Assembly: GCA_001603075.1 (NCBI GenBank) | Contig: LVBB01000030.1 | Coordinates: 1-52,300 of the forward strand | Source: Phycisphaerales bacterium Planc_01 | GTDB lineage: Bacteria > Planctomycetota > Phycisphaerae > Sedimentisphaerales > Anaerobacaceae | Direction of reading: 5' to 3' | DNA: 52,300 nucleotides | Shown: positions 5,816-52,300 of the stretch, piece after piece | How positions within the stretch are numbered: position 1 is the stretch's first letter | How the letters are laid out: every line of letters starts with the position of its first letter | Position numbers and translations under genes: made by a program | The notes under the pieces: generated by a model | What the model was told of the DNA's origin: nothing | The model's database searches: none | The model's input: only the letters and a program-made list of their open reading frames with translations

Positions 5816-5844
5816 TTGCAGTCAATATACCGATTCGTTATGAT
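5816..5844 (+). promoter_or_regulatory. Promoter of the DUF1593 gene
   Basis: TTGCAG (5816-5821), 17 nt, TATGAT (5839-5844). A short palindrome GTCCCG/CGGGAC (5891-5907) lies in the leader just before the ribosome site. Confidence 0.6.
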
Positions 5845-5930
5845 CCACTCTGCGATGTACAGGAGCATCGGTTGCCAGACCAGATGGAGCGTCCCGGCTG
5901 GCGGGACATATGGAAACTGGAGCGACAGAC

Positions 5931-8534: not shown

Positions 8535-8710
8535 ATCTTGACTCCTACCCCCAGGACGGCTGCCCGGATGGATGCGGACACTCAGGGTCGGCCCCCTCGA
8601 AGTCCCGGGCGCCTGTCCCTCGTATACGCACCCCCGCAACCGCCAACTTCTATTGTAAGGGTTGACACCCTTCTTTCCCCGAAATTCATCCTTGCCCGCC
8701 TGAAGAAACC

Positions 8711-8755
8711 GGGGTCCGTCCCCTATAAGACGCGGGGTCCGTCCCCTATAAGACG
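8711..8755. repeat. Tandem 22-bp repeat
   Basis: GGGGTCCGTCCCCTATAAGACG occurs at 8711-8732 and again at 8734-8755. It contains the short palindrome GGGGTCCGTCCCC. Confidence 0.8.
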
Positions 8756-8807
8756 TCTCGCGTCCTCGCTGCACGCCGAGGCGCTTCTGCGGCCGGGGCT
8801 CGCTGGG

Positions 8808-15470: not shown

Positions 15471-15512
15471 GAGGGCGAACAGTGACTGACGCGCACTTAT
15501 GTGGGGTGTACC

Positions 15513-19138: not shown

Positions 19139-19184
19139 GACGGGCAAAACGTCCGGGCTTCGGGCGAGAAAGTGAGGACATCGA

Positions 19185-21542: not shown

Positions 21543-21551
21543 GAGAACCCG

Positions 21552-37161: not shown

Positions 37162-38589
37162 TCACGTCCAGGGGGCGTTCTGGAGGGCCTTGGTCTTTTC
37201 GGGGAGGTGGAAGATACGGCGGGCATTGTTGTGCATGATGAGGTCGGCCAGCTCCAGGGCATCGGGCACGGAGACCCAGCCTTCTTCGACCAGTTCGGTC
37301 AGCGCCAGGGCGATGCCCTGTCGGGCGATCGCCGCGTGGCCGAGGACGGGCTCGACGGGGATGTAGTCGCCTCCGAAGGTCAGGACCTTGTTCGCCGGGG
37401 CGGTCACGAGAAACTTCTTGAGGAACTCCTTGGCCGAGACGGGATTGATGATCCACGACCAGCACATATCGACGTGCGCGTTGGCATAGTGCTTGGCCAC
37501 CGAGATCAGCTCTTCATAGTACGGATAGCAGATGTGCATGAAGACGAACGGCGTATCGGGCGCAGCGCGGCACAGGTCGCTGGCGGAGCCGGGATTGTGG
37601 AGCAGCCGGCCCTGCGGCATGTAGTTGTGGCCGGCGTAATAGCCTGTGTGCAGCTTGACCGGCAGCTTGTGCTCCGTCGCCTTGCCGACCGCGTACCAGA
37701 ACAGGTGGTCCTCCATCGCCTTCTTCTCCTGAGGGGAGAGCGACTCGTCGGCCAGCCGCTTCTTGAAAATCGCTTCGACCTTCTCGGCGGGCACCCGCTC
37801 GTAGTTGATGTCACGGTGGTAGGCGTCCTGCGATTTGACCGCGACGGCGTACTTGCCGTACTTGGCGAACCACCAGTCGATCACGCGATGCCAGTCGGCC
37901 AGCGAGGCGACCTCGATCCCGGTCGGTTTGCCGAACGCATCGAGGTTCGGGCCCGCGTACATGCCGAGAATGCTGAGATCCTGCATCAGCAGCGTGGGCA
38001 TGTCCGACTCGCCGAACGGCGCGCCGAGGAAGTTGACCTGGCACGACTCGATCTTGCTCATCTCGCAGAGAATGCGCCGATAGAAGCCCGGCCGGCGGGT
38101 CTGCTCGTAGGCGGCCTGCACCTTCTCTACGGTCGCAGCCGACAAGTCGTCCACGTCATAGAGCCGTCGCATCGCGATCCGCACCGCCTGCCCGTAGCCT
38201 GTGTTCTTGACGGCCGGCCAGTACGGCTCGAGCAGACGCCATTTCTCGGCCGCGTCGGTCGTCGGCGAGAAGAACCGATCGTACGCATCGCCCGACATGC
38301 CCGCGACGGCCAGGTCGGAGTCCAGATAGTGACTCAGCAGCAGGCTCCAGTCGTCCCCTTCGTCGCGCGGGCGCGAGGCCGCTGCCAGACGGTCCTTTTC
38401 CTCGGGCAGATGCTCGTGGGTGTCGATCAGAGGCGTTCCCGACACCTTCTCAGCGATCGCCGGATGGATGCGTCCGGCAAGAGCCGGAGCCTTTGCCCCC
38501 ACCGTCTTCGATCCGAGGATGGTCGTAGCGCCCAGCGCTCCCATGCCGGCCAGCGTGTCCCGTCTGGAGATGCGATTGTCCTTCTTCAT
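37162..38589 (-). CDS. Tat-exported amidohydrolase-superfamily protein
   Basis: The 475-residue protein starts with a twin-arginine signal (NRISRRDTLAGMGALGATTI). The TIM-barrel part fits the amidohydrolase-2/uronate-isomerase side of the superfamily: the metal-binding HxH analogue in PLIDTHEHLPEEKDRLA, KLHTGYYAGHNYMPQGRLLH, VFMHICYPYYEELISVAKHY with a His after the sixth strand, and LTFGGDYIPVEPVLGHAAIA with the final Asp. The C-terminal DLIMHNNARRIFHLPEK is the usual end. The reaction is unknown; hydrolysis or isomerisation of a sugar acid or lactone is possible. AAGGGAT precedes the ATG; the promoter is at 38674-38702. Confidence 0.87.
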   Translation of the reverse strand: MKKDNRISRRDTLAGMGALGATTILGSKTVGAKAPALAGRIHPAIAEKVSGTPLIDTHEHLPEEKDRLAAASRPRDEGDDWSLLLSHYLDSDLAVAGMSGDAYDRFFSPTTDAAEKWRLLEPYWPAVKNTGYGQAVRIAMRRLYDVDDLSAATVEKVQAAYEQTRRPGFYRRILCEMSKIESCQVNFLGAPFGESDMPTLLMQDLSILGMYAGPNLDAFGKPTGIEVASLADWHRVIDWWFAKYGKYAVAVKSQDAYHRDINYERVPAEKVEAIFKKRLADESLSPQEKKAMEDHLFWYAVGKATEHKLPVKLHTGYYAGHNYMPQGRLLHNPGSASDLCRAAPDTPFVFMHICYPYYEELISVAKHYANAHVDMCWSWIINPVSAKEFLKKFLVTAPANKVLTFGGDYIPVEPVLGHAAIARQGIALALTELVEEGWVSVPDALELADLIMHNNARRIFHLPEKTKALQNAPWT

Positions 38590-38673
38590 GGCAAGATCCC
38601 TTCAATCCGCGATGAACCCATCGGCCGCACGTCGATCGTTCCGCAAGCTCCAAACCGTTCCCGCACCGGCGTC

Positions 38674-38702
38674 ACTATGACCGAGTCTCCCTGGAAAGGC
38701 AA
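38674..38702 (-). promoter_or_regulatory. Promoter of the amidohydrolase gene
   Basis: TTGCCT (38702-38697), 17 nt, CATAGT (38679-38674). Divergent from 38772-38800. Confidence 0.45.
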
Positions 38703-38771
38703 CGGAAAAACGGGCGATTCGCCCGCGTCTGCTGCACCCGCCCCGGCGGCCACAGGGCGTGTGGAATTGTG

Positions 38772-38800
38772 TTGCGGGCGGCTGGCGGGACTTATACCAT
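38772..38800 (+). promoter_or_regulatory. Promoter of the DUF5060 gene
   Basis: TTGCGG (38772-38777), 17 nt, TACCAT (38795-38800). Confidence 0.45.
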
Positions 38801-38842
38801 GCTGGAACGACAGAAGCCACTTGTCCGGTAAGGAGCTCTGGG

Positions 38843-40747
38843 ATGGCGTTGCATCAGGATTTCGGATGGGGCAGCGCGGATCGGGGATTCGCGGCGTCCA
38901 CCAGATACAAATCGCAGGGTACGAAGCGCCTTTGGGGCGTCTTGCTCATCTGCCTGGCCCTGGCGAGCGGCTGCACGACTCGCCCTCAGGAGCGAGAGGT
39001 CATTCTGAGTGGCCAGCTCAAGCAGTGGCACACCGTCACGGTGACCTTCGAGGGGCCCGAGACGAGCGAAAGCGGCGATCCTAATCCCTTCCTCGATTGC
39101 CGTCTGAACGTCACCTTCTCCCGAGGCGACAAGCACACCCTCGTGCCGGGCTACTACGCCGCGGACGGCCACGCCGCACACAGCAGCGCCGACAGCGGCC
39201 GTCGCTGGCGGGTCCACTTCGTACCCGACGAGATGGGGCTTTGGACGTACACGGCATCCTTTCGAACCGGCCCGGACATCGCCATCATAACCGACCCCAA
39301 TGCGGGGGCCCCCGCCGCCTTCGATGGAGCGACCGGAACATTCCTCGTGGGTCCGACCGACAAGCTGGCGCCCGATCTGCGGGCCAAGGGCATGCTGCGG
39401 TACACCGGCCAGCGCTACCTGCAATTCGCCCAGACCGGCGAGTCGTTCCTCAAGGCCGGAGCCGGCAGTCCCGAGAACTTCCTGGCCTACGCCGACTTCG
39501 ACGGCACGTACGACACCGAGGAGCTCAGACGAGAAGGCGAGGCGGCCGGCCCGAAGTTCATCCACCGCTACGAGCCCCACCTCCAGGACTGGCGCGAGGG
39601 CGATCCGACCTGGAAGGACGGCAAGGGCAAGGCCATCATCGGCGCGTTGAACTACCTCGCCTCGAAAGGCATGAACAGCGTCTACTTTTTGACCTACAAC
39701 ATCGACGGCGGAGACGGCCAGGACGTCTGGATGTGGACCGAGCCCCGGGAGAAGTACCGTTTCGATTGCAGCAAGCTCGACCAGTGGGACATCGTCTTTT
39801 CGCACATGGATGAGCTCGGCCTGATGCTCCACGTCGTTACGCAGGAGACGGAGAACGACCAGGTGCTCGACGGGGGCGAACTCGGCCGGCAGCGCAAGCT
39901 CTACTACCGCGAGCTGATCGCGAGGTTCGGCCATCACCTGGCCCTGGTCTGGAACCTCGGCGAGGAGAACACGAACACCGACGCCCAGCACAAGGCGTTC
40001 TGCAAGTACATCCGGGACATCGACCCCTACGATCACCCCATCGTCTGCCACACGTATCCGGGCGGGTACGACGAGGTTTACACGCCGCTGCTGAGCTTTC
40101 CGGACTTCGAGGGTGTTTCGCTCCAGACCAACGACACGCACCACCAGACCGTCAAGTGGCTCGAAGCGTCGAAGGCGGCCGGACGGCAATGGTTTGTCTG
40201 CCTCGACGAGATCGGTCCGGCCCACACAGGCGTCAAGCCCGACAACGACGACTACGCGCACGACGAGGTGCGCACGAAACACCTTTGGCCCAACCTCCTG
40301 GCCGGGGGCGCGGGCGTCGAGTGGTATTTCGGCTACCGCTTCGCCCACAACGATCTGAACTGTGAGAGTTGGCGCAGCCGGGACCACATGTGGGACCAGA
40401 CGCGCTACGCGGTGCAGTTCATCCGGGACCTGCCTTTCACTCGAATGAACCGCCACGACGAATTGACCTCGGGCGAGAACCACTACTGCCTCGCCGAGCC
40501 GGGCTCGGTATATGCCATCTATCTGCCCTCGGGCGGGACGACCGATCTGGACCTCGGCACGGCTACGGAGCCTTTCCGCATCCGGTGGTTCGACCCCCGA
40601 AAAGGCGGCCCCCTTCAGATCGGAACGCTGGCGATGACCGCCGGCCCGGGCATCGTTACCATCGGTCAGTCCGCCATCGACAGCGACAAGGACTGGGTGG
40701 CCCTGGTCGTGCGCTCCTCGTTGCAGCCCTCGGATCGCCGTCGATAG
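38843..40747 (+). CDS. DUF5060/GH5-like glycoside hydrolase lipoprotein
   Basis: AGGAG eight bases upstream supports ATG 38843, giving 634 residues. The signal is long: about 30 polar residues, then RLWGVLLICLALASGC with a lipobox Cys. Residues about 50-150 are a DUF5060 beta-sandwich (WHTVTVTFEGPETSESGDPN, FVPDEMGLWTYTASF). The (beta/alpha)8 part (about 190-530) is of the GH5/DUF4038 kind: GALNYLASKGMNSVYFLTYN, LVWNLGEENTNTDAQ with the acid/base Glu and WFVCLDEIGPAHTG with the nucleophile Glu. The C-terminal part (YCLAEPGSVYAIYLPSGGTT, IRWFDPRKGGPLQIG) is the Collagen_bind_2-like domain. Substrate unknown. Confidence 0.87.
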   Translation: MALHQDFGWGSADRGFAASTRYKSQGTKRLWGVLLICLALASGCTTRPQEREVILSGQLKQWHTVTVTFEGPETSESGDPNPFLDCRLNVTFSRGDKHTLVPGYYAADGHAAHSSADSGRRWRVHFVPDEMGLWTYTASFRTGPDIAIITDPNAGAPAAFDGATGTFLVGPTDKLAPDLRAKGMLRYTGQRYLQFAQTGESFLKAGAGSPENFLAYADFDGTYDTEELRREGEAAGPKFIHRYEPHLQDWREGDPTWKDGKGKAIIGALNYLASKGMNSVYFLTYNIDGGDGQDVWMWTEPREKYRFDCSKLDQWDIVFSHMDELGLMLHVVTQETENDQVLDGGELGRQRKLYYRELIARFGHHLALVWNLGEENTNTDAQHKAFCKYIRDIDPYDHPIVCHTYPGGYDEVYTPLLSFPDFEGVSLQTNDTHHQTVKWLEASKAAGRQWFVCLDEIGPAHTGVKPDNDDYAHDEVRTKHLWPNLLAGGAGVEWYFGYRFAHNDLNCESWRSRDHMWDQTRYAVQFIRDLPFTRMNRHDELTSGENHYCLAEPGSVYAIYLPSGGTTDLDLGTATEPFRIRWFDPRKGGPLQIGTLAMTAGPGIVTIGQSAIDSDKDWVALVVRSSLQPSDRRR

Positions 40748-40842
40748 GACAGCCGGGCGCCGGACGCGGCCGGCCAGGGGCAATGCCCTGCTCCCAAGGG
40801 CGGAATCCACAGGACAGATCGCGGATTGGCCGGTGAATCGGA

Positions 40843-40871
40843 TTGCCTGAGGCGGCCGAATCTGGTATAAA
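40843..40871 (+). promoter_or_regulatory. Promoter with a 290-nt leader for the first giant protein
   Basis: TTGCCT (40843-40848), 17 nt, TATAAA (40866-40871). Start of translation is at 41171. Confidence 0.6.
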
Positions 40872-41080
40872 CGAGTTACGGATGTGTGGGTTCACGATGT
40901 AGCCGCAGAGGCGTGAAGCGAGCCGCCCGCCGGCAAGTCGAACTCGGAGGCCCTTATGCAATGTGTCCTGGCGTACACATGGCGCAAGGGGGGAAGTGCT
41001 GAGCGTATGCCCGCATCCGGTTCCCACGTCTTTCTCGACCGTCGCGGCGATCGTCATTTCGGAAAGGAGGTGCCCTGCCC

Positions 41081-41152
41081 GTGTCTCGCCCTTTGGGGAC
41101 ACAAGTAAGTCGGTCACGAGTGAATGCAGCGCAACGCGATTCAACAGGCTGA
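41081..41152 (+). CDS. Possible leader peptide
   Basis: GTG 41081 follows a near-perfect ribosome site (AAAGGAGG, 41063-41070) and encodes 23 residues (MSRPLGTQVSRSRVNAAQRD, STG) ending with TGA 41150-41152, 18 bp before the main ATG. The main gene's own site, AAAGGAGG (41156-41163), begins 4 bp after this stop, so translation of the two could be linked. No stalling motif was recognised. Confidence 0.35.
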   Translation: MSRPLGTQVSRSRVNAAQRDSTG

Positions 41153-41170
41153 TTGAAAGGAGGACCCAGT

Positions 41171-44026
41171 ATGTGCGGAAGAATCATCTGTTCGTTCGTC
41201 CTGATCCTGGGGCTGGCCGGTTTGGCGGCGGCCCAGGGCTGGGACATGGAAATCCCGTCCGTGAACAAGCCCCCGGTCATCGATGGCGAGGTCGATCCGA
41301 TCTGGTCGATCGCCTCGGTGCAGTACATCAGCACAACGATCGACGGCACCGTCAGCTCGCCGGAAGACTGCTCGGGCAGTTGGCGTGCCATGTGGGACGG
41401 GGAGTATCTCTATGTGATCGTGGATGTCAACGACGACACTCTCGTCAACGATTCGGGCAGTGCGTATCTGGACGACAGCGTCGAGTTCTACTTCGATGGC
41501 GGCAACACCAAGAATCCGGGCTCGCCGCTGTCCGGCACCAGCCGTCAGTACACCTTCGGCTGGACCGCCGCAGACATCCAGGGCACCAACACCAGCCTCG
41601 ACGGAGTGGAACACGCCCAGGTGAACACCGACACCGGCTGGCGCATTGAAATGAAGTTCCCGTGGATGTCGCTCCAGGGCTCGGCGCCTGCGATGGGCGA
41701 CCTCATCGGGATCGATGTGTTCATCAACGACGACGACAACGGCGGCGATTCACGGGAAGCCCAGGTCTCCACATTCGCCCGCAGCAATGCCGACTGGCAG
41801 ATTCCCGCCTCCTGGGGCACCGCCATTCTGGTCAAGGGAAGCAGCGAGAAGGCCTCGGCGCCCAACCCGCCCGACGGCGCGACGGACGTATCCCGCGAGG
41901 CGGTCCTCGAATGGTCGCCCGGCGAATTCGCCCACACGCACGACGTGTACTTCGGGACGGTGTTCGACGACGTCAGCAATGCCGATCGGGCCAACCCGCT
42001 GGGCGTGCTGGTCAGTCAGGGCCAGAGCGCCGCGACATACGATCCGCCCGGGCGTCTGGAGTTCGACCAGACGTACTACTGGCGGATCGATGAGGTCAAC
42101 GCCCCGCCGGACAATTCCGTTCACAAGGGCGAGGTCTGGACCTTCACGGCGGAATCCTTCGCTTATCCCATTCAGGGCATCATCGCCACCAGCAACGCCC
42201 TGAGCGAGGAAGGAGCCGGACCCGAGAGAACCGTGGATGGCTCCGGACTCAATGCGCAGGGCCAACACTCGATCGCCGCAGCGGACATGTGGCTCGCCGA
42301 CGCCGCCGACGGCGAACCGACCTGGCTGCACTATGAGTTCCCGAGAATCTACAAGCTGCATCAAATGGAGGTCTGGAACTACAACGTGCTGTTCGAGCTG
42401 ATTCTCGGCTTCGGGCTCAAGGACGTCACTGTCGAGTATTCTGCTGACGGCGTCGACTGGACGGTGCTGGGCGACTTCCAGTTCGCCAAGGGAACGGCCA
42501 AGACCACGTATACCGCCAATACGACGATCGATTTCGGCGGGGTGGCCGTCAGGTACGTCCGCCTGACCGTCAACAGCGGCCACGGCACGACGGGGCAATA
42601 CGGCCTGAGCGAGGTTCGCTTCCTGCACATCCCCACCTATGCGCAGAACCCCCGACCGGCCGACGGCGCAACGGAGGTGGCCCCCGATACGGTGTTTGGA
42701 TGGCAAACAGGAAGAGAAGCGGTCCGACATGAGGTCTATCTCGGCAGCGATGAGGAGTCGCTCGCTCTGGTCGGCACGGTGAGCCAGCCCAGTTTCGCAC
42801 CGGCCGATCTGGAGTTCGCAAGCACCTACTACTGGAAGGTCGTCGAGGTCAATGAAGCCGAGGCCGTCCCCGCGTGGGAAAGCAGTCTTTGGAGTCTCTC
42901 GACGCAGGAATTCGCCCTGATCGACGGGTTCGAAACGTATACCGACAACGTCGATGCCGGCGAGGCCATCTTCGACACATGGCTCGATGGATGGGTCAAC
43001 AACACCGGCTCGACCGTCGGCTATCTGAACGCGCCGTTCGCCGAGAAGACCATCGTCCGCAGCGGACGGCAGTCCATGCCGCTGCAGTACGACAACAGCC
43101 AATCGCCCTGGTATTCCGAGGCGGTCCGGGAGTTCGAAACCGCCCGGAACTGGACAACGCACGGCGCGACCATGCTGGCCCTCTACGTGCGAGGCAACGC
43201 ACCCGCCTTCCTGGAGGACGCTCAGGGCAACATCATCATGAGCGCCATCGGCAACGACATCTGGGACAGCGCGGACCAGTTCCGTTTTGCCTACAGGAGC
43301 CTCAGCGGCAACGGTTCGATCGTCGCCCGCGTCGACAGTCTGGAACGCAGCAACGAATGGGCTAAAGCCGGCGTGATGATTCGCGAGACACTGGAGCAGG
43401 GCTCGAAGCACGCCTTCGTGTGCGTGACGCCGGACAACGGCATCAGCCTCCAGCGCCGTCCCGTCGCCGGACAGGCCAGCGCCAACACGGACGTTGCGGG
43501 CCTGGCCGCCCCCTACTGGGTCAAGCTCACCCGGACGGGCAATACGTTCACCGCGCAGCATTCGGCCGACGGCGCGACCTGGGTCGATATCACCGTCAGC
43601 CCGGCGCTGGAGATCCAGATGGGCGGCAACGTCTACATCGGCCTGGCCCTGACCAGCCACGACACCGCCATGCCGACGAGCGCAGAATTCTCCAACGTCT
43701 CCACCACCGGCAGCGTCAGCGGCTCGTGGCAAACCGCCGCCATCGGCGTCGCCCAGCCCGTAGGCAACTCGCCGGAGTCGCTGTATGTGGTGATCGAGGA
43801 CGCCACCGGGAAGATCCAGGTCGTGAAGAACCCCAACCCGGCAGCGACAACGAAGACGGGCTGGAACCAGTGGCAGATTCCGTTCAGCGATCTGGCCGGC
43901 GTCAATCTGACCCGGGTCACAAAGATGTACATCGGCGTCGGCGACCGCAACACTCCGACGCCTGGAGGCACCGGCGTGGTCTACATCGACGACATCGGTT
44001 ACGGCCGTCCTGTGGCTACCGAGTAG
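41171..44026 (+). CDS. Giant secreted modular protein 1 (CBM9-like, discoidin)
   Basis: A 951-residue protein, first of four paralogues. Signal peptide about 1-22 (FVLILGLAGLAAA). Residues 33-228 are CBM9-like (PPVIDGEVDPIWSIASVQYI, YLYVIVDVNDDTL, VEFYFDGGN), usually a sugar-binding module. Then: FN3-like (about 230-328), discoidin/F5-8 (about 329-491; TVDGSGLN, WNYNVLFELILGFGLKDVTV), second FN3-like (492-585), and a C-terminal galactose-binding-like domain (about 590-951; FETYTDNVDAGEAIFDTWLD, ending VYIDDIGYGRP) that is split by a DUF1349-like lectin fold (about 705-850; WAKAGVMIRETLEQGSKHAF). No sorting signal. Likely binds polysaccharide outside the cell. It differs from its paralogues only in the N-terminal module. 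Confidence 0.87.
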   Translation: MCGRIICSFVLILGLAGLAAAQGWDMEIPSVNKPPVIDGEVDPIWSIASVQYISTTIDGTVSSPEDCSGSWRAMWDGEYLYVIVDVNDDTLVNDSGSAYLDDSVEFYFDGGNTKNPGSPLSGTSRQYTFGWTAADIQGTNTSLDGVEHAQVNTDTGWRIEMKFPWMSLQGSAPAMGDLIGIDVFINDDDNGGDSREAQVSTFARSNADWQIPASWGTAILVKGSSEKASAPNPPDGATDVSREAVLEWSPGEFAHTHDVYFGTVFDDVSNADRANPLGVLVSQGQSAATYDPPGRLEFDQTYYWRIDEVNAPPDNSVHKGEVWTFTAESFAYPIQGIIATSNALSEEGAGPERTVDGSGLNAQGQHSIAAADMWLADAADGEPTWLHYEFPRIYKLHQMEVWNYNVLFELILGFGLKDVTVEYSADGVDWTVLGDFQFAKGTAKTTYTANTTIDFGGVAVRYVRLTVNSGHGTTGQYGLSEVRFLHIPTYAQNPRPADGATEVAPDTVFGWQTGREAVRHEVYLGSDEESLALVGTVSQPSFAPADLEFASTYYWKVVEVNEAEAVPAWESSLWSLSTQEFALIDGFETYTDNVDAGEAIFDTWLDGWVNNTGSTVGYLNAPFAEKTIVRSGRQSMPLQYDNSQSPWYSEAVREFETARNWTTHGATMLALYVRGNAPAFLEDAQGNIIMSAIGNDIWDSADQFRFAYRSLSGNGSIVARVDSLERSNEWAKAGVMIRETLEQGSKHAFVCVTPDNGISLQRRPVAGQASANTDVAGLAAPYWVKLTRTGNTFTAQHSADGATWVDITVSPALEIQMGGNVYIGLALTSHDTAMPTSAEFSNVSTTGSVSGSWQTAAIGVAQPVGNSPESLYVVIEDATGKIQVVKNPNPAATTKTGWNQWQIPFSDLAGVNLTRVTKMYIGVGDRNTPTPGGTGVVYIDDIGYGRPVATE

Positions 44027-44081
44027 CATGAAGCAGACGAATCGCGGCAAGACCCACCTGCCGCAATCCGCAGCGCACTCA

Positions 44082-44116
44082 AGGGGCCTGTTCCGACAAC
44101 CATCGGACAGGCCCCT
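44082..44116 (+). terminator. Terminator-like hairpin after the first giant gene
   Basis: AGGGGCCTGTTCCGA (44082-44096) pairs with TCGGACAGGCCCCT (44103-44116) with one bulged base and a 6-nt loop. No T-run. Confidence 0.6.
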
Positions 44117-44171
44117 GCTGCTTGCCCAAGTCACGACGCCGAGAGAAACCGATCGCCCGGCGCAAATGGTA

Positions 44172-44199
44172 TTGCAGACAACTTGCAGATTCGATAAAA
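44172..44199 (+). promoter_or_regulatory. Possible promoter of the second giant gene
   Basis: TTGCAG (44172-44177), 16 nt, GATAAA (44194-44199). An alternative TTGCAG at 44183 with a -10 TAGCTG at 44206 is weaker. Confidence 0.4.
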
Positions 44200-44303
44200 A
44201 GAAAGTAGCTGGAGCGTCTGTTGCCGGTCTTCCGATGGGAGAGAGGACCTGAACAACCGTTCCAGCAGCCGACAGATCCATTTCCACTTGAAGGAGGACG
44301 ACG

Positions 44304-47264
44304 ATGGACACGCCCAGATGGTCCCGGATCGCCAAACCCGCCGCCGTATGCCGGGGATGCGCGGTATTGCTGCTGTTCCATACAGTCCTGATGGCCGCAG
44401 GCCCGGACCCGACAGGTCTGGTGCTGTACCTGCCCTTTGAGGACGCGAGGAACCCGCTCGACGCCTCGGCCAATCCCACGTCCGTCGTGGTCCACGGCGC
44501 GCTTACGTCCGCCCAGGGCCAACTCGGGACCAAGGGCCTGGAATTCAACGGGAACCCCGCCAACCGCATCGAGGTCCTCCACGCCCCCAAGCTGGAGGGG
44601 ATGTCGACCCTCACCATCGAAGCATGGGCGCTGCCCCGCAATATCGCCAGTCACGAGGGGATGTCCATCGTCTCGAAGAGGATCGCGAACCAGAACGCCG
44701 ATGCGTACAACCTGTTCATCTGGACCGGTCAGCTTGTGGAAGCCCGCGTGAACGCAGCCGGAGCGATCCGGTCCACGACGGCGCTGCAAGACAACAACTG
44801 GTACCACATCGCCTATGTGTTCGATGCCCAGGCCGGCGCCGGCCAGAAGACGAAGCTCTACATCAACGGCGTCCTGGAAAACACGGGCGACCACACCGCC
44901 AGTGTGGCCCTCGGGTCGAATGGCGGCGGCGCGCCCATCTGGGTCGGCGAACTGGACGCGGCGAGAGGATTCCCGTGGGACGGCGTCCTGGACGAGATCG
45001 GCATCTGGAACATCGCCCTGAGCGAGGCGGACATCAATCAGCTCATGGTCCAGAGCAAGGCCAAAATGCTCAAGGGAGGCATCGCCTGGAACCCGGCACC
45101 GGCCGACGGCGCCGAGGACGTGCTTCGCACCACGGACCTGGCCTGGTCGCCGGGCGAGTATGCGGTCACGCAGAATGTGTACTTCGGTCTGTCCCGTGAG
45201 GACGTCAATGCGGCCGCGTCGTCGGCCCGGATCGCCGAGAACCTGACGCGCAACGTCACGAGTGTGGACGTCGGGGCCCTGGAGTTCGGTCGGACGTATT
45301 ACTGGCGTGTCGATGAAGTCAACGGCGCCCCGGACTTTGCGGTGCTCGAAGGCGATGTCTGGAGCTTCACGGTCGAGCCGCTCGCCTACCCGGTTCCCAA
45401 CGTCGTGGCCACCAGCAACGGCATCTCCGATGGGCTTTCCACAGCGCAGCGGACGGTGGACGGCTCGGGCCTGAATGCCGCCGACCAGCACTCGGTCGAG
45501 GCGGCCGCCATGTGGCTGGCCAAAGCCCCGGACGAGGAGCCCCTCTGGATCCAGTACGATCTTGGAAAGCTCTACAAGGTCCACGAAATGCTCGTGTGGA
45601 ACTACAACAGCCAGTTCGAGCTGCTTCTCGGATTCGGGCTCAGAAACGTCAGCGTGGAGTATTCCCAGAACGGTGAGATCTGGGCAACGGTGGGCGATGT
45701 CGAGCTCGCCAGGGCCACCGCAACGGGGACGTACGCCGCCAATACGACAGTCGATCTCGGCGGCGTCGCGGCCCGATACGTTCGGCTGACCGTCAACAGC
45801 GGATGGGGCACGATCGGCCAGTTCGGCCTCAGCGAGGTGCGTTTTACGTTCATCCCCGCCCAGGCCGACCGACCCGAACCGGCCGACGGCGCCGCCGGCG
45901 TGGCCCCGGACGTGACGCTGATTTGGCGCCCGGGCCGCGAAGCCGTTGTCCATGAACTCTATCTCGGCACGGACCCGGCGGCCCTCGCTCCGCTGGACAC
46001 GGTCGATCAGCCCGGCTATTCGACCGCGAACCTGGAATTCGGAGGCACCTACTACTGGCAGGTCGTCGAGGTCAATCAGGCCGAGGAGATTGCGGCCTGG
46101 GCCGGTGAGGTCTGGAGCTTCTCGACACAGGAATATGCCTTGATCGATGGCTTCGAGACCTACACCGACGACATCGACGCCGGCCAGGCCATCTTCGACA
46201 CGTGGCTCGACGGCTGGGTCAACAGCACCGGCTCGACCGTCGGCTACCTTGAAACCCCGTTCGCCGAGCGGAGCATCGTCCACGGCGGCCGGCAGTCCAT
46301 GCCGTTGCAGTACGACAATACCGCCACGCCGTTCTACTCGGAGGCCGAACGGGTGTTCGACTCGCCGCAGAACTGGACGGTCTACGGCGCCGACACGATG
46401 GTGCTGTACTTCCAGGGCGTGCCCGCCGCCTTCCTGGAACAGGCGAACGGCAAGATCGTCATGGGCGCAGCCGGCACGGACATCTGGAACACCGCCGATG
46501 AGTTCCGTTTCGCCTGCAAACCGCTCAGCGGCGACGGCTCGATCGTCGCCCTCGTCGAGAGCGTGGCGCGCACGAACGAATGGGCGAAGGCCGGCGTGAT
46601 GATCCGCGAGACGCTCGAGCCCGGTTCGAAGTTCGCCGCCGTCTATTCCACGCCCGATTATGGATGTCGCTTCCAGGCCCGTCTGGCCGCGAGCGCGGAG
46701 GCCGTCAGCGACAGTTCGGTTGCCACAGCCGAGCAGGTCGCCACACGCACCCCGCATTGGGTCAAGATCGAGCGTCTCGGCAGCACCTTCAACGGCTATT
46801 ATTCCACCGACGGCGAGAACTGGACCGCGATGGCTTGGAACCCGCAGACGATCGCGATGGGGATGAACGTGTATATTGGCCTGGCCTTGACGAGCCATCA
46901 GGCGGGCATCCTGAGCAGCGCCGAGTTCTCCGGCGTGGGCACCACGGGCAACGCGACGGGGCCGTGGACGGTTCAAACGATCGGTCCGGAGCAGCCGGAG
47001 GGCAATGCGGCCGCGCCGCTCTATGTGAGACTGGAAGACACGACGGGCAAGGCCGCTACCGTGAAGCATCCGGCCGGCGATGGAGCGGTGTTCCTGGCCG
47101 GCTGGAATCAGTGGCAGATCCCCCTGAGCGACTTTGCCGGTGTGAATCTGAGTCGCGTCGATACGATGGTCATCGGCGTCGGCAGCCGGACCAGCCCGAC
47201 CGCCGGCGGCACGGGCATCGTCTACATCGACGACATCGGCTACGGCCGCCCTGCCGCCGAGTAA
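44304..47264 (+). CDS. Giant secreted modular protein 2 (LamG, discoidin)
   Basis: A 986-residue protein with a GAAGGAGG site before its ATG. Signal peptide about 1-32. The N-terminal module (about 36-258) is a LamG/concanavalin-like jelly roll: TGLVLYLPFEDARNPLDASA, LTIEAWALPRN, NWYHIAYVFD, KLYINGVLENTGDH and GVLDEIGIWNIALSEADINQ. The rest mirrors protein 1: FN3-like (260-357), discoidin (358-518; TVDGSGLNAADQHS, WNYNSQFELLLGFGLRNVSV), FN3-like (520-612) and the split C-terminal domain (613-986) with the DUF1349-like insert (about 730-890) and the end YIDDIGYGRPAAE. The insert is the most diverged of the four (CRFQARLAASAEAV). Likely an exported glycan binder; no catalytic domain seen. Confidence 0.87.
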   Translation: MDTPRWSRIAKPAAVCRGCAVLLLFHTVLMAAGPDPTGLVLYLPFEDARNPLDASANPTSVVVHGALTSAQGQLGTKGLEFNGNPANRIEVLHAPKLEGMSTLTIEAWALPRNIASHEGMSIVSKRIANQNADAYNLFIWTGQLVEARVNAAGAIRSTTALQDNNWYHIAYVFDAQAGAGQKTKLYINGVLENTGDHTASVALGSNGGGAPIWVGELDAARGFPWDGVLDEIGIWNIALSEADINQLMVQSKAKMLKGGIAWNPAPADGAEDVLRTTDLAWSPGEYAVTQNVYFGLSREDVNAAASSARIAENLTRNVTSVDVGALEFGRTYYWRVDEVNGAPDFAVLEGDVWSFTVEPLAYPVPNVVATSNGISDGLSTAQRTVDGSGLNAADQHSVEAAAMWLAKAPDEEPLWIQYDLGKLYKVHEMLVWNYNSQFELLLGFGLRNVSVEYSQNGEIWATVGDVELARATATGTYAANTTVDLGGVAARYVRLTVNSGWGTIGQFGLSEVRFTFIPAQADRPEPADGAAGVAPDVTLIWRPGREAVVHELYLGTDPAALAPLDTVDQPGYSTANLEFGGTYYWQVVEVNQAEEIAAWAGEVWSFSTQEYALIDGFETYTDDIDAGQAIFDTWLDGWVNSTGSTVGYLETPFAERSIVHGGRQSMPLQYDNTATPFYSEAERVFDSPQNWTVYGADTMVLYFQGVPAAFLEQANGKIVMGAAGTDIWNTADEFRFACKPLSGDGSIVALVESVARTNEWAKAGVMIRETLEPGSKFAAVYSTPDYGCRFQARLAASAEAVSDSSVATAEQVATRTPHWVKIERLGSTFNGYYSTDGENWTAMAWNPQTIAMGMNVYIGLALTSHQAGILSSAEFSGVGTTGNATGPWTVQTIGPEQPEGNAAAPLYVRLEDTTGKAATVKHPAGDGAVFLAGWNQWQIPLSDFAGVNLSRVDTMVIGVGSRTSPTAGGTGIVYIDDIGYGRPAAE

Positions 47265-47322
47265 CATGGCCGCCAAGCTGTCGTGATTGTCACCGACAAA
47301 AAGTGTGGTAAGGAGATCAGGA

Positions 47323-50241
47323 ATGAAACGATCCAAAGTGCATCGACAACGATTGATGATGGTCGGTTTCTGCACGCTGGCGATGACCTGCACAATGCAG
47401 GCCGCCATCCCCGAGGGGCTGGTCGCCTACTACAAACTGGATGCGACATCGGGCCTGACCGCCACCGATGAGACCGGCGCTCACCATGGGACCCTTACCG
47501 GCCCGCTCGCCTGGGTTCCCGGCAAGGACGGCAACGCCTTGCAGTTCATCGGCGGCAACGGCGCGCCCTTCGTGAATCTCGGCGCCTGGCAGACCAACGG
47601 TCCGGCCGGTCTGGGTCTGGCCGTCTGGGTCAAGTGGGCCGGGTCAAACGGCCTGTACCAAGGCTTGATCAGCCAGCGTCAAGGCACCATGTATTGGTGG
47701 ACGGAACTGTCGACGGATGCCGCCCAACTGCGGTTCAAGTCCAATACGAGCCCTCAGGGCAATCTGTTCCTGACGAGCCCGCATCTGGTTCAGGACGAGT
47801 GGACGCACTATGCCTGCTCCCATGACGCTGCGGCGGGAACCGGGGCCGTATACCTCAACGGCGAGGAACGGCTGAGTGGTTCGTGGAGCCTGCCCGGCGG
47901 CGACTTCAGCAATCTGAACGTCGGGATCGGCGTGGTGAACACCGCCGACGGACTCGGCACTTTCAACGGCGTGCTTGACGAAGTGATGATTTTCGATCGG
48001 CCTCTATCCGTCGAGAGTGTCACCGCGGCCATGAACGGGTTCTCCGATCCGGCAGCGTCGGCCCCCCAGCCGGCCAACGGCGCGGTGGACGTGCGACGAG
48101 ACGTCGTCCTGAACTGGCGGCCGGGCGAAACGGCCGTTGCTCACGACGTATACTTCGGCACGTCGTTCGACGGTGTCGCCGCCGCGGACCGGGCCAATCC
48201 GATGGGCGTGTTCATGAGCCGGGGTCAGGACGCCAACGCATACGACCCCAGCCCGCTCGAATTCGGCTGGACCTACTACTGGCGTGTTGACGAGGTCAAC
48301 GCCCCGCCCGGCGGTGAGATCTTCCCAGGCGAGGTCTGGAGCTTCACCACCGAGCCTTACGCCTATCCCATTGAGGGCGTTACGGCGACAACCAATGCGA
48401 TCACCCAGGCGGGCGCTGGGATCGAGAACACCATCAACGGCTCCGGCCTGAACGCCGAGAACGAACACTCGACCAACGGCCCGGACATGTGGCTCGGCGT
48501 TCCGGCCGACGGCGAGCTGATCGTGATCCACTACGCGTTCGATCGACTCTACAAGCTCCACGAAATGTGGATATGGAATTACAATGTGATGTTCGAGCCG
48601 ATGCTCGGCTTCGGGCTCAGAGAGGTGACCATCGACTATTCGGCCGATGGTGTCGATTGGACGACACTGGGTGACTTCGAACTGGCACAGGCCCCGGGCA
48701 CAACCATGTACAAGCCCGGCACCAGGATCGACATGGCCCAGGCGGCGGCTCGACATATCCGGCTGACCGTTCGCAGCGGATGGAGCGCGATAGGCCAGTA
48801 CGGCTTGAGTGAAGTCCGCTTCCTCCATATCCCCGCCGTCGCGCGAGACCCGGAACCGGCCTCCGGCCGAACGGGCCTGAATCCGGACGTCGTGCTCGGC
48901 TGGCGGGCAGGCCGCACCGCAACGTCTCACCACGTCTACTTCGCGAGCGATCAGGAGGCCGTCGCAAACGGGACGGCGCAGATCGATTCGGTCGTCCAGA
49001 CCCGATACGATCTCGGTGCACTGAACCTGGGCACAACCTACTATTGGAGGATCGACGAGGTCAACGAGGCCGACATACCCGCCGTCTGGGAAGGCGACCT
49101 CTGGAGCTTCGCCACGAAGGAGTACATCGTCGTCGAAGACTTCGCCGACTACACCGACGATATCGACGCCGGCCGGGCCATCTTCCAGACATGGATCGAC
49201 GGCTGGGAGAACGGCACCGGCTCGATGGTGGGCTATCTGGAGGCTCCGTTTGCCGAGCAGACGATCATCTACGCCAGCGCCCAATCGATGCCGCTGACGT
49301 ATGACAATACCGCATCGCCGTGGTACTCCGAAGCCCAACGGGCCTTCGATTCGCCACAGGACTGGACGGTTTACGGCGCCGATACCCTCGTGCTCTATGT
49401 GCGGGGCAGCGCACCGGGCGTCCTCGAAGGCGCCGACGGGAACATGCTCATCGGCGCGATCGGCAGTGACATCTGGGGCACCAGCGATCAGTTCCGTTAC
49501 GTCTATAAGCGGCTCAGCGGAGACGGTTCGATCGTTGCTCGCGTGGACAGTGTAGCCGAGAGCGACGGCTGGGCCAAGGCCGGCGTGATGATCCGCGAGA
49601 CCCTCGACGCGGGCTCAACGCATGCGATGGTGGTCGTGACGCCGTCGAATGGCATCTCGTTCCAGCGCCGCCTGGAGACCGGTGCCGCCAGTGCGAACAC
49701 CGATGCCGGCGGTCTGGCCGCACCGTACTGGGTGAAGCTGACGCGGACGGGCAACACGTTTACCGCACAACGGTCGGAAGACGGAAACACCTGGGTAGAT
49801 ATCACACCTGCCGCGCCCGTGCAGATCGCCATGACCGGCGATGTCCACATCGGGCTGGCCGTGACGAGCCACAACGCCAACGCGGCCACGCTCGCAGGAT
49901 TCTCCCACGTCGCCACTACGGGCAACGTCAGCGGCGCATGGAGCGAACAGGGCATCGGCGCCGCGCAGCCGACGGGGAACACGCCGGATACACTCTATGT
50001 GGTGCTCGAAGACAGCAGCGGACGGGCCGCGATGGCGACCCACGAGAACGCCAACGTCACGATTACGCCTCTCTGGCAGCAGTGGCGCATCCCGCTGGCC
50101 ACCTTCAGTTCGGCCGGTGTCCGCCTCGACAGCATCGAGATGATGGCCGTCGGCGTCGGCAACCGAAGCAATCCGATATCGGGAGGAACGGGTATCGTCT
50201 ACATCGACGACATCGGCTTTGGCCGCCCGGCCTTTCCGTAG
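47323..50241 (+). CDS. Giant secreted modular protein 3 (LamG, discoidin)
   Basis: AAGGAG (47310-47315) sets ATG 47323; the product has 972 residues and only 58 bp separate it from the previous gene, so both may be one transcript. Signal peptide about 1-28 (MMVGFCTLAMTCTMQAA). LamG module about 30-245 (EGLVAYYKLDATSGLTATDE, LGLAVWVKWAG, DEWTHYACSHDAAAGTGAVY, GVLDEVMIFDRPL). Then FN3-like (246-343; HDVYFGTSFDGVAAADRANP), discoidin (344-505; NGSGLNAENEHS, LGFGLREVTIDYSADGVDWT), FN3-like, and the split C-terminal domain with DUF1349-like insert (about 725-870; WAKAGVMIRETLDAGSTHAM). Ends VYIDDIGFGRPAFP. Confidence 0.87.
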   Translation: MKRSKVHRQRLMMVGFCTLAMTCTMQAAIPEGLVAYYKLDATSGLTATDETGAHHGTLTGPLAWVPGKDGNALQFIGGNGAPFVNLGAWQTNGPAGLGLAVWVKWAGSNGLYQGLISQRQGTMYWWTELSTDAAQLRFKSNTSPQGNLFLTSPHLVQDEWTHYACSHDAAAGTGAVYLNGEERLSGSWSLPGGDFSNLNVGIGVVNTADGLGTFNGVLDEVMIFDRPLSVESVTAAMNGFSDPAASAPQPANGAVDVRRDVVLNWRPGETAVAHDVYFGTSFDGVAAADRANPMGVFMSRGQDANAYDPSPLEFGWTYYWRVDEVNAPPGGEIFPGEVWSFTTEPYAYPIEGVTATTNAITQAGAGIENTINGSGLNAENEHSTNGPDMWLGVPADGELIVIHYAFDRLYKLHEMWIWNYNVMFEPMLGFGLREVTIDYSADGVDWTTLGDFELAQAPGTTMYKPGTRIDMAQAAARHIRLTVRSGWSAIGQYGLSEVRFLHIPAVARDPEPASGRTGLNPDVVLGWRAGRTATSHHVYFASDQEAVANGTAQIDSVVQTRYDLGALNLGTTYYWRIDEVNEADIPAVWEGDLWSFATKEYIVVEDFADYTDDIDAGRAIFQTWIDGWENGTGSMVGYLEAPFAEQTIIYASAQSMPLTYDNTASPWYSEAQRAFDSPQDWTVYGADTLVLYVRGSAPGVLEGADGNMLIGAIGSDIWGTSDQFRYVYKRLSGDGSIVARVDSVAESDGWAKAGVMIRETLDAGSTHAMVVVTPSNGISFQRRLETGAASANTDAGGLAAPYWVKLTRTGNTFTAQRSEDGNTWVDITPAAPVQIAMTGDVHIGLAVTSHNANAATLAGFSHVATTGNVSGAWSEQGIGAAQPTGNTPDTLYVVLEDSSGRAAMATHENANVTITPLWQQWRIPLATFSSAGVRLDSIEMMAVGVGNRSNPISGGTGIVYIDDIGFGRPAFP

Positions 50242-50245
50242 GTGC

Positions 50246-50298
50246 ATGGCAGGACATCCGTCGCACGCGGAAGCGTCCGCGGGGCTTGTCCTCGCCAT
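50246..50298 (+). terminator. Possible hairpin after the third giant gene
   Basis: ATGGCAGGACA (50246-50256) pairs with TTGTCCTCGCCAT (50286-50298) with a bulge, and an inner GCGGA/TCCGC stem. Weak evidence. Confidence 0.35.
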
Positions 50299-50329
50299 GG
50301 GGCAGCCGTCGATCCCGGCTGGATTGTTG

Positions 50330-50359
50330 TTGAATTCCGCCCCTCGGATATGCTATAAA
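50330..50359 (+). promoter_or_regulatory. Promoter with a 345-nt leader for the fourth giant gene
   Basis: TTGAAT (50330-50335), 18 nt, TATAAA (50354-50359). ATG is at 50713. Confidence 0.5.
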
Positions 50360-50365
50360 TGGAAG

Positions 50366-50712
50366 TGAAGGGTTCTGCGGTAGGCATTCACATTGGGCCT
50401 TAGAAACGCGAAGTCTTGGGATTGCCAAGGAGCGGACATGGCCGGGAATGTGGTTTCACACCGAAGTGCACTCACTGCGTGCGCCGTCATCTCGCGCTGT
50501 TTCCGTCTCGCTCCAACGCTCGTTTCTCCAGGGAGGAGGTGAAGAGGAGGATCGTGCAACTGCATTCCGTCTGAGGCAAGACGATGAGCCGGCTTGGCCG
50601 GTGTTCGCGTGCAGGGCAACCATACCCCGGCACGCAGTGGAGAGAGAGTGCTCTCGGTGTGTGGCCGAGAAAGGGTCATAGGATTCACTCTATATCTGAA
50701 GGAGGACATGGT
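50366..50712 (+). other. Long untranslated leader of the fourth giant gene
   Basis: About 345 nt with no clear gene. Contains purine-rich ribosome-site-like runs at about 50530-50555 followed by a 6-codon frame (GTG 50554), and hairpins near 50590-50610 and 50640-50665. Like the leader at 40872-41170 in length and in having a strong upstream ribosome site. No riboswitch class was recognised. Confidence 0.4.
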
Positions 50713-52300
50713 ATGTTGAGGCGATCATTTCTATTAGTCTTCTGCGTGGGGGTGTTGGGGCAAGCCTGGGTGGCTTCGGCTGCCCTGGACCCGAGTCTGG
50801 CGGCGTGGTGGCCCTTCGATGAGGGGGAAGGCACCATTGCCTATGATGCTACCGGCAACGGCAATGATGGTGTCTTCAACGGCGATCCGCGATGGGTGCC
50901 CGGCGTGTTGGGCAGCGCGTTGGAGTTTAGCGGCAACGACTATCTGAACTGTGGCAACGGCCCGACCCTCCAGATCCGGGACGCCATTACGATGGCTCTC
51001 TGGTTCAAGGTCGAGGCGTTCCAGACAGAATGGGAAGCCTTCTTCTCCAAGGGCGATGACTCCTATCGCGCCAGCCGGGGTGACGGCAACGGCAATGCCA
51101 CCCACATGGGCATTTCGGGGACCACGGTCGGCGGGGGCAACGGTTACTTCAATGGAACTGTCATCATCACCGGCGGCGAATGGCACCACTATGCCTCCAC
51201 GTACGACGGCACAGAGGGACGGATTTACATTGACGGTGTGCTGGACGTGGTCAGTCCGGGTACGGGCCAAATCAACAGCAGCACTTATGAGCTTTGGATT
51301 GGCACGAACTCACAAAATACGGGCCGGCTACTGCACGGTATTCTCGATGACATTCAGATCTACAGCCGTGCCTTGTCCGAGGCGGAGATCAGCGTCATCA
51401 TGAAAGGTCTGGCCGACCAGACGCTGGCGCAGAACCCCCGTCCGGCCGATGAGGCGACCGATGTCCCGCGTGACGTGGTGCTGAATTGGACGGCCGGCGA
51501 GTTCGCCGCGGCGCACGATGTGTACTTCGGGACGGCGTTCGACGACGTCAACAACGCCAGCCGGGCCAATCCGATGGGTGTGCTGCTCAGCCAGGGCCAG
51601 ACCGCCACGACGTACGATCCGGACGGGTTGCTCGAATTCAATACGACATACTACTGGCGGATCGACGAAGTGAATGCGGCGCCGGACAATACGATCTTCA
51701 AGGGCCAGGTGTGGAGTTTTACGGCGGAACCATTTGCGTACCCGGTCGAGAACGTCATCGCGACCAGCAACGGGCTTTCCGACGAGGTATCCACGCCTGA
51801 GAAGACAGTGGACGGGTCAGGTCTCAACCCGGGCGATCAGCATTCGACGGAGGCGGGGCATATGTGGCTGGCCTATGCCCCGGACGAAGGGCCGTTCTAC
51901 CTCCAGTACGAGTTCGACCGCGTCTACAAGCTGCACGAGATGCGGGTCTGGAACTACAACGTCCAGTTCGAGTTGCTTCTGGGCTTCGGGCTCAAGGACG
52001 TGACGGTCGAGTACTCCGTGGACGGTGAAGAGTGGACCGTTCTGGGCGACGTCACGTTCGCCCGGGCGACAGCCAAGGGGACGTACGAGGCGAACACGAC
52101 CGTGCCGTTCGATGGGGTTCCGGTGAAGTTCGTGCGACTGACCATCAACAGCGCCTACGGGACGATGGGCCAGTACGGCCTGAGCGAAGTGCGCTTCCTG
52201 TACATTCCGGCGCAGGCCCGCGAGCCGCAGCCGGCCGACGGGGCGGCGGGTGTGGACGTAACGACCGCGCTGAGCTGGCGTGCCGGTCGCGATGCGGCCT
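50713..52300 (+). CDS. Giant secreted modular protein 4 (LamG, discoidin), partial
   Basis: GAAGGAGG seven bases before ATG 50713 sets the start. The frame stays open to the window end (529 codons seen). Signal peptide about 1-23 (FLLVFCVGVLGQAWVASA). LamG module about 26-235 (LAAWWPFDEGEGTIAYDATG, AITMALWFKVEAF, EWHHYASTYDGTEGRIYIDG, LDDIQIYSRALSEAEISVIM). FN3-like about 239-337 (HDVYFGTAFDDVNNASRANP), discoidin 338-498 (TVDGSGLNPGDQHS, WNYNVQFELLLGFGLKDVTV), and the start of the second FN3-like module (REPQPADGAAGVDVT). The C-terminal split domain would lie beyond the window. It has its own promoter and long leader. Confidence 0.87.
   Translation, partial: MLRRSFLLVFCVGVLGQAWVASAALDPSLAAWWPFDEGEGTIAYDATGNGNDGVFNGDPRWVPGVLGSALEFSGNDYLNCGNGPTLQIRDAITMALWFKVEAFQTEWEAFFSKGDDSYRASRGDGNGNATHMGISGTTVGGGNGYFNGTVIITGGEWHHYASTYDGTEGRIYIDGVLDVVSPGTGQINSSTYELWIGTNSQNTGRLLHGILDDIQIYSRALSEAEISVIMKGLADQTLAQNPRPADEATDVPRDVVLNWTAGEFAAAHDVYFGTAFDDVNNASRANPMGVLLSQGQTATTYDPDGLLEFNTTYYWRIDEVNAAPDNTIFKGQVWSFTAEPFAYPVENVIATSNGLSDEVSTPEKTVDGSGLNPGDQHSTEAGHMWLAYAPDEGPFYLQYEFDRVYKLHEMRVWNYNVQFELLLGFGLKDVTVEYSVDGEEWTVLGDVTFARATAKGTYEANTTVPFDGVPVKFVRLTINSAYGTMGQYGLSEVRFLYIPAQAREPQPADGAAGVDVTTALSWRAGRDAA

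Follow-up and report, generated by a model that had tools for sequence, protein, structure and literature searches.

The right end of contig LVBB01000030.1 of the Phycisphaerales bacterium Planc_01 carries four open reading frames (ORFs) in the same direction, starting at 41171, 44304, 47323 and 50713. The window analyzed is this entire contig (C30), 52300 bases of a 5.65 Mb genome that is assembled in 162 contigs. The four genes are members of a family of modular proteins, which is read here as a lineage-specific repertoire of about 58 secreted, apparently non-catalytic binding proteins, each with a locus-fixed N-terminal module, the N-plug, on a common chassis. The probability of this reading is put at about two in three. 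The chassis consists of an FN3-like module, a CBM32-type discoidin module, a second FN3-like module and the first half of a CBM-like host domain; the N-plug and C-plug are the variable ends. The members share their architecture and signal-peptide-like starts, form a large family restricted to one lineage, have N-plugs with orthologues across species, and have C-plugs that differ at fixed loci. Three sister genomes, G005, G002 and the single-contig G003, were used for comparison; L- and C-numbers denote loci and contigs of Planc_01.

The chassis and its plugs

Gene 1 (41171..44026, plus strand, as are all four genes) encodes 951 amino acids and consists of a signal peptide, CBM9, FN3-like, discoidin and FN3-like modules, and a CBM-like host domain with a nested DUF1349 domain. 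Its N-plug (41279..41833, residues 37-221) matches CBM9_1 (PF06452) with 129.2 bits against a cut-off of 23.4 (E 2.2e-37). The chassis, constant across the family, begins with the first FN3-like module (41852..42157, boundary approximate). It continues with the CBM32-like discoidin module (42158..42646, placed by profile), the second FN3-like module (42647..42904, boundary also approximate) and the first half of the host domain (42905..43207). The DUF1349-like domain (43211..43756) and the second half of the host (43760..44017) complete the protein.

Genes 2 (44304..47264, 986 amino acids) and 3 (47323..50241, 972 amino acids) have the same series behind a signal peptide, with a LamG module as the N-plug. 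In gene 2 the LamG module lies at 44589..45038, the discoidin module at 45381..45869 and the split C-terminal domain at 46128..47261 (insert 46434-46994); the corresponding positions in gene 3 are 47602..48021, 48358..48846 and 49117..50238 (insert 49423-49968). Gene 4 (50713..52300, 529 amino acids) is incomplete because the contig ends at 52300. It has a signal peptide, LamG (50929..51393), an FN3-like module, discoidin (51733..52221) and the start of the second FN3-like module. The N-plugs of genes 2, 3 and 4 match Laminin_G_3 (PF13385) with 73.1, 60.9 and 97.6 bits (E 4e-20, 2e-16 and 1e-27) against a cut-off of 27.6. The discoidin modules of genes 1, 2 and 4 score 34.7, 48.8 and 31.7 bits with the F5/8 type C family (PF00754), above its curated cut-off of 28.2; that of gene 3 falls below it (20.8) yet is by profile a clear family member. 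No window protein matched fn3 of Pfam at E 0.1, and only weak Pur_ac_phosph_N and Big_5 matches appeared, so the FN3-like label is based on pattern and predicted strands. In-register DNA repeats, in blocks of 300 and 149 nucleotides with 69-75% identity, join all four genes, and repeats also join the C-terminal parts of genes 1 to 3.

A sequence-only reading of the window had described this series, with CBM9 in the first gene, LamG in the other three, the discoidin module at a nearly equal offset in each and a split C-terminal domain in genes 1 to 3. The ORFs, Pfam, the profile, the repeats and the models bear this out, and the profile coordinates of the discoidin modules lie at most 13 bases from those given earlier. 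The proteins had been called giant; genes 1 to 3 encode about 970 amino acids each.

DUF1349 (PF07081) scores in genes 1 to 3 (29.8, 31.8 and 20.3) are all under the curated cut-off of 32.4. The AlphaFold model of the C-terminal part has a mean predicted local distance difference test score (pLDDT) of 80.8, with residues 1-36 and 38-64 below 50. Residues 107-278 of this model, the insert, match the folds of 3mep (Z 19.5) and 3o12 (Z 19.0), solved DUF1349-like proteins. The split C-terminal domain is thus a host domain interrupted by a DUF1349-like β-sandwich. The fold of the insert is like that of 3mep and 3o12; here, however, it is nested in a host, occurs in only some paralogues and stays under the cut-off in sequence. 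The model of the whole gene 1 chassis has a mean pLDDT of 83.5 (residues 371-416 below 50), and its discoidin module superimposes on 7blg, the galactose-bound CBM32 of BT3015C, with Z 16.9, 2.2 Å and 24% identity, followed by many further CBM32 structures. The sialidase 1w8o, with a CBM32 and its adjoining domain, aligns across residues 10-270 (Z 15.9). While the fold is that of CBM32 or F5/8 type C modules such as 7blg, here the module sits in the middle of a chassis and is repeated about 58 times in one genome. Sequence searches against solved structures gave weak matches or none, and an NCBIfam scan gave the family proteins only weak TafC matches, far under the cut-off. Most modules belong to or resemble known families; the host domain is the exception, since no family name was found for it and the fold search hardly covered it or the FN3-like part.

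A profile built from the four window discoidins found 58 members and one fragment in Planc_01. The member ORFs add up to about 162 kb, or about 3% of the genome, and are mostly dispersed as stand-alone genes. Nearly all complete members share the chassis. The junction between N-plug and chassis could be displayed for 53 of the 58, and the same motif opens the constant part before the first FN3-like module while the preceding sequence differs. LamG is the most frequent match among 57 N-regions at E 0.001 (32), followed by CBM9, CBM4/9 and PD40 (2 each), a concanavalin-like toxin receptor-binding model (2, weak), and PA14, CBM96, kinase and others (1 each). When 20 N-regions were scanned singly, 9 had no match at E 0.05. 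The locus-specific N-plug placed ahead of the chassis is thus LamG, CBM9, CBM4/9, PA14, a β-propeller or a stretch without family assignment. An N-region of 1,552 amino acids precedes a C-terminal chassis in a 2,289-amino-acid ORF (L024:2800-9669) and is presumably the one that matches a protein kinase (E 1e-41) and TPR repeats. The ORF behind it (L024:12293-14485, 730 amino acids) has PD40 propeller repeats and, ahead of the junction, a stretch that looks dockerin-like.

The C-terminal end varies as well. In Planc_01 the DUF1349 is nested in 16 members, the host stands alone in 4 and a longer tail is present in 24; 11 members are truncated, 2 lack a detected first host half and 1 is of another kind. 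Among 52 tails, 16 matched LamG and 11 matched DUF1349. The C-plug is accordingly either a DUF1349 inserted into the host or a longer tail, in many cases LamG, or it is absent. The earlier claim that only the N-terminal module changes therefore holds for genes 1 to 3 but not for the family. Six long-tail members (L005 7945, L007, L015, L026, L043, L044) share a similar short C-terminus (PMHKPF, PLHKSF, PLAKPF, PTHKPL), which may be a sorting signal or the mere end of a tail domain.

The repertoire appears to be secreted. By simple rules, 52 of 57 members have signal-peptide-like starts and one has a lipobox. By a simple hydrophobicity rule, a C-terminal membrane helix was found in none of the 45 members with both ends, which separates the family from cell-anchored adhesins recognized by such a helix. 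The window genes matched no catalytic domain. An alignment of 243 cores from the four genomes has 100 positions with 93% identity or more; the discoidin module accounts for 40, among them H372, W408, N409 and N411 (numbered from 41153). That the chassis stays so constant while the N-plugs differ widely suggests that every copy performs the same task, such as binding a common ligand, cell-surface presentation or assembly. The proteins would bind extracellular polysaccharides; specificity would come from the N- and C-plugs, and the chassis would provide binding or presentation in every member. The sequence-only reading is supported in so far as the family is modular, secreted and probably glycan-binding, with different N-modules.

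The same features could instead describe structural proteins, β-sandwich blocks of an extracellular matrix or cell coat in which the plugs are cargo or spacers and not glycan receptors. The very large number of secreted members and the lack of a matched catalytic domain in the window genes agree with this. So would the strong ribosome site, suited to abundant proteins: AGGAGGA lies within 200 bases upstream of 33 of 56 family genes and of 6 of 224 control ORFs, whose starts were crudely called, and it alone emerged from a motif search upstream of family genes. Many plugs, however, match carbohydrate-binding or lectin-like families (LamG 32 of 57, CBM9 2, CBM4/9 2), and among solved structures a galactose-bound CBM32 comes nearest to the discoidin fold. 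A mainly structural role is rather doubtful.

Lineage, local duplication and N-plug orthology

The discoidin profile, fragments included, matched 72 times in G005, 77 times in G002 and 66 times in G003. A first pass, with about 60 candidates scored, gave 51 to 61 matches in genomes of the same genus and 0 to 39 in other genera of the family; 31 of 61 genomes, Planc_01 included, matched at E 0.001. When the phylum was sampled evenly, 4 of 392 genomes matched at E 1e-20, again including Planc_01, and all four belong to one order. Sequence relatives come from Planctomycetota, Phycisphaerae, Phycisphaerales and Sedimentisphaerales, including the 6.5 Mb chromosome CP070782. At the sensitivity used, the family thus appears lineage-specific by sequence, seen in a single order of Planctomycetota and with a strong expansion in one genus. 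Titles and abstract openings in the open PubMed Central literature gave no apparent description of it. We regard the family as a lineage-specific expansion of modular secreted proteins with an unusual split between locus-fixed and exchanged parts. In a genome of the same order and another family (G040), 8 of the 9 discoidin matches listed contain one in-frame TAA inside the stretch that matches (e.g. C22:2879-3343 of that genome); the protein possibly ends at the domain.

Thirteen of the 58 members in Planc_01 run off a contig end (e.g. on C30, C36, C55, C58, C76, C84, C122, C139, C143, C152 and C154), which suggests that the family disrupts assembly. Besides cut copies of this kind, fragmented genomes in these lineages may contain chimeric ones. 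Two members, L004:5195-8335 and L035:4981-7937, are broken in the C-terminal domain with the remainder in another frame, and their ORFs contain unknown bases.

The sequence-only reading had explained the four genes by recent local tandem duplication followed by swapping of N-modules between neighbours, perhaps as a recombination switch. The genes are adjacent and share their module series, and some adjacent pairs elsewhere are fairly alike: two of the seven in Planc_01 have cores 69 and 72% identical, and the maxima are 79% in G005 and 81% in G002. The three window pairs, however, have core identities of 59, 53 and 55%, against a median of 58% over all pairs in the genome. Neighbours in the window are thus no more alike than family pairs generally, and local duplication is not supported. 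The remaining adjacent pairs are at 56 and 59%. Genes 1 to 3 have their closest core in G005; for gene 4 it belongs to the paralogue at L004, on a different contig (81%). In the family tree, from which gene 4 was left out as too short, genes 1 to 3 cluster with genes of other species and not with one another. The orthologues of genes 1 and 3 lie far apart in G003, at 6.11 and 2.17 Mb. They are directly adjacent in G002, where separate short contigs carry those of genes 2 and 4. The core identities against the genome background and the placement in other genomes led us to reject tandem duplication as the origin of the four window genes. Old orthologues exist, which the earlier reading had named, together with a single conserved order, as evidence against itself; the order seems not to be conserved.

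The N-plugs remain at their loci in the sister species. The best N-module identities in G005, G002 and G003 are 89, 86 and 65% for gene 1 and 91, 84 and 77% for gene 3. Genes 2 and 4 have 91 and 78%, and 59 and 89%, in G005 and G002, with no clear match in G003. Reciprocal best N-regions at 55% identity or more were found for 44 of the 58 members in G005 and 39 in G002. At 60% or more, 43, 38 and 19 members have a reciprocal N-module orthologue in G005, G002 and G003, and 53 have one in any of the three, all four window genes among them. In 35 of 44 reciprocal pairs with G005 and 33 of 39 with G002, the N-region is more conserved than the core. The best match of the core is the same gene as the N-orthologue in 37 and 29 of these pairs, and flanking ORFs are shared in 31 and 22. 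Core quartets are consistent with N-orthology at bootstrap values of at least 95% in 818 of 819, 538 of 561 (Planc_01 with G002) and 456 of 464 cases. Quartets between Planc_01 and G002 that contradict it number 6 of 561 by raw count; 3 of the 6 reach that bootstrap level, and these three come from one trio (L004, L029, L038).

Together the orthology of the N-plugs, the shared flanks and the quartets indicate that the genes are old and mostly inherited as units. Switching of N-plugs is rejected on the orthology of N-plugs and flanks, and swapping of cores as a rule on the quartets, which track N-orthology almost everywhere. No pair of inverted repeats of 25 nucleotides or more was found within 38000-52300. 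Local duplication with module swapping is thus very improbable and already largely refuted, and the family has the appearance of an extensive, stable toolkit and not of genes that were copied lately and switch.

C-plug differences and possible exchange within the chassis

Two other parts of the genes vary within loci, the C-plug and patches of the core. Past recombination between modules, proposed from the sequence alone, is supported by paralogues with cores 80-86% identical and N-regions without a blastp match (E 1e-4). The C-plug differs in 6 of 32, 7 of 27 and 6 of 31 orthologue pairs in which both types are known, in three comparisons. At L044, homology with the DNA of G005 extends from the upstream flank to 8006 and is lost from there to 9063, immediately past the gene; the C-plug alone fails to align, while the N-plug, the core and the DNA on either side do. 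The same break is found between L044 and G002, and the second gene of L038 is similar in its comparison with G002.

Signs of exchange within the core were sought by counting genes in which a 150-nucleotide patch matches a paralogue at 85% identity or more and at least 15 percentage points better than it matches the orthologue. As a control, the donor with the most similar N-region was excluded for each gene in each donor genome, the gene's own included. Same-genome patches were found in 6 of 42 (judged against G005) and 12 of 38 (against G002) Planc_01 genes, 10 of 42 and 13 of 39 G005 genes, 13 of 38 and 15 of 39 G002 genes, and 4 of 18, 1 of 19 and 2 of 18 G003 genes. Donors from other genomes gave 0 to 7 for the first three genomes and 0 throughout for G003 genes. 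Thus 6 of 42 Planc_01 genes compare with 1 and 0 from the two other donor sets, 13 of 38 G002 genes with 3 and 0, and 4 of 18 G003 genes with 0 and 0. Without the exclusion of donors, the same-genome counts were 6, 13, 11, 13, 14, 16, 7, 3 and 2. Recombination between paralogues of one genome would thus overwrite patches of the chassis, while the N-plug, signal peptide and upstream DNA stay; the donor control lends this support short of proof.

Several results weigh against the repertoire reading or the exchange attached to it. One N-region matches a protein kinase and one, weakly, a 3-keto-disaccharide hydrolase, so some members may be catalytic. The sequence alignment of the discoidin module to 7blg reaches only about 15 bits, too weak to map ligand-site residues. 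Adjacent members in G005 and G002 have a middle core identity of 65% against genome medians of 60 and 61%, which makes some local duplication or conversion likely there. The neighbours of family genes, taken from a codon-score gene call and not from a gene finder (84 of 85 used, after exclusion of L021:9084-9470, a C-terminal fragment of a family gene), have no protein family in more than 4 of 84, among 25 of 132 families listed and with no background computed. The members, with such diverse immediate neighbours, seem not tied to particular pathways.

The patch counts also depend on the reference and on gene completeness. Judged against G003 orthologues, Planc_01 genes have more patches from G005 donors (9 of 18) than from their own genome (6 of 18), and other-genome donors reach up to 11 of 19 for G005 genes against 13 of 19 from the same genome. 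The excess of close-sister donors can be older shared exchange, yet it weakens the case. Restriction to complete genes removes the contrast for Planc_01, where same-genome patches occur in 1 of 32 genes (other donor sets 1 and 0) and in 3 of 25 (4 from G005 donors, 0 from the other set). It weakens the contrast for G005 (4 of 32, other sets 1 and 0; 8 of 29, other sets 4 and 0), for G002 (7 of 25, other sets 2 and 0; 8 of 29, both other sets 0) and for G003 (1 of 7, 1 of 8 and 1 of 9, other sets 0). Pairs with a 120-nucleotide window at least 93% identical number 15 of 1540 in Planc_01, 23 of 2277 in G005, 19 of 1953 in G002 and 1 of 1540 in G003. Among pairs below 76% overall they number 7 of 1521, 10 of 2246, 6 of 1925 and 1 of 1539, with 19 of 21,930 between genomes, where pairs at 76% or more were excluded as likely orthologues. 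Near-identical tracts are thus almost absent in the single-contig genome, and recent conversion is not independent of assembly quality. Recent gene conversion argued from such tracts alone was set aside, weakened by their scarcity in G003 and by the between-genome pairs.

These results bear on a further explanation, that chimeric assembly of a repeated family in fragmented genomes produced most of the mosaic patches and differing C-plugs, the family itself evolving by plain descent. The tracts occur in the fragmented Planc_01, G005 and G002 assemblies but in a single pair of G003; several of the genes with tracts end at contig ends or contain unknown bases; and the donor contrast of Planc_01 genes disappears with complete genes. 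The recent tracts may partly be assembly artefacts. The C-plug differences, however, occur inside closed ORFs whose flanks are colinear on both sides (L044 compared with G005 and G002, the second L038 gene with G002), and G003 genes have same-genome patches where either other donor set has none. Plain descent with chimeric assembly is accordingly unlikely as the main cause. Older patchy exchange is better supported than the recent tracts, mainly by G002, G005 and the C-plug differences. A more specific proposal adds gene conversion to the stable repertoire: each locus would keep its recognition module and upstream region, while conversion among about 60 scattered copies repeatedly overwrites the chassis and exchanges the C-plug. 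This is held only tentatively.

Neighbouring genes and related systems

The gene upstream of gene 1 (38681..40747, plus strand) encodes DUF5060 and a putative collagen-binding domain, and an ORF 79-81% identical to it adjoins the gene 1 orthologue in G005 and G002. Further glycan-related genes in the window are a Sde182-like gene (5844-7274), GH43 (7521-8774, minus strand), DUF3472/DUF5077 (15486-16763), GH95 (19176-21542) and a right-handed β-helix gene (21543-23267) whose chondroitinase B match is barely above the cut-off. A MacB/FtsX-like permease gene is also present (24464-25828, minus strand). An association of the family with polysaccharide loci found no support, as the 84 neighbours showed no common family among those listed, although the window itself holds these several glycan-related genes.

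The PE/PPE proteins of mycobacteria are likewise a large dispersed family of secreted paralogues with a constant and a variable part and recombination between copies. Their folds are unrelated; in the present family the constant part is central and the variable ends carry known binding-domain families. Recombination-switched surface antigens change the recognition module at a locus, whereas here the N-plug is kept and the C-plug differs in about one fifth of pairs.

Sedimentisphaerales have the highest number of unique CAZyme (carbohydrate-active enzyme) module combinations, according to PMC11131199. Those multi-modular proteins, probably from the same order, are enzymes with added CBMs, whereas the window genes matched no catalytic domain; the main text of that study leaves LamG, laminin, discoidin and fibronectin unmentioned.

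A receptor repertoire of the kind proposed would invert classical antigenic variation, where the recognition part changes at a constant locus. If the N-plug is indeed fixed, the chassis overwritten and the C-plug swapped, the family would amount to a naturally evolved combinatorial library whose binding modules share one scaffold. It would also represent a form of repertoire evolution in which conversion homogenizes the scaffold and spares recognition.

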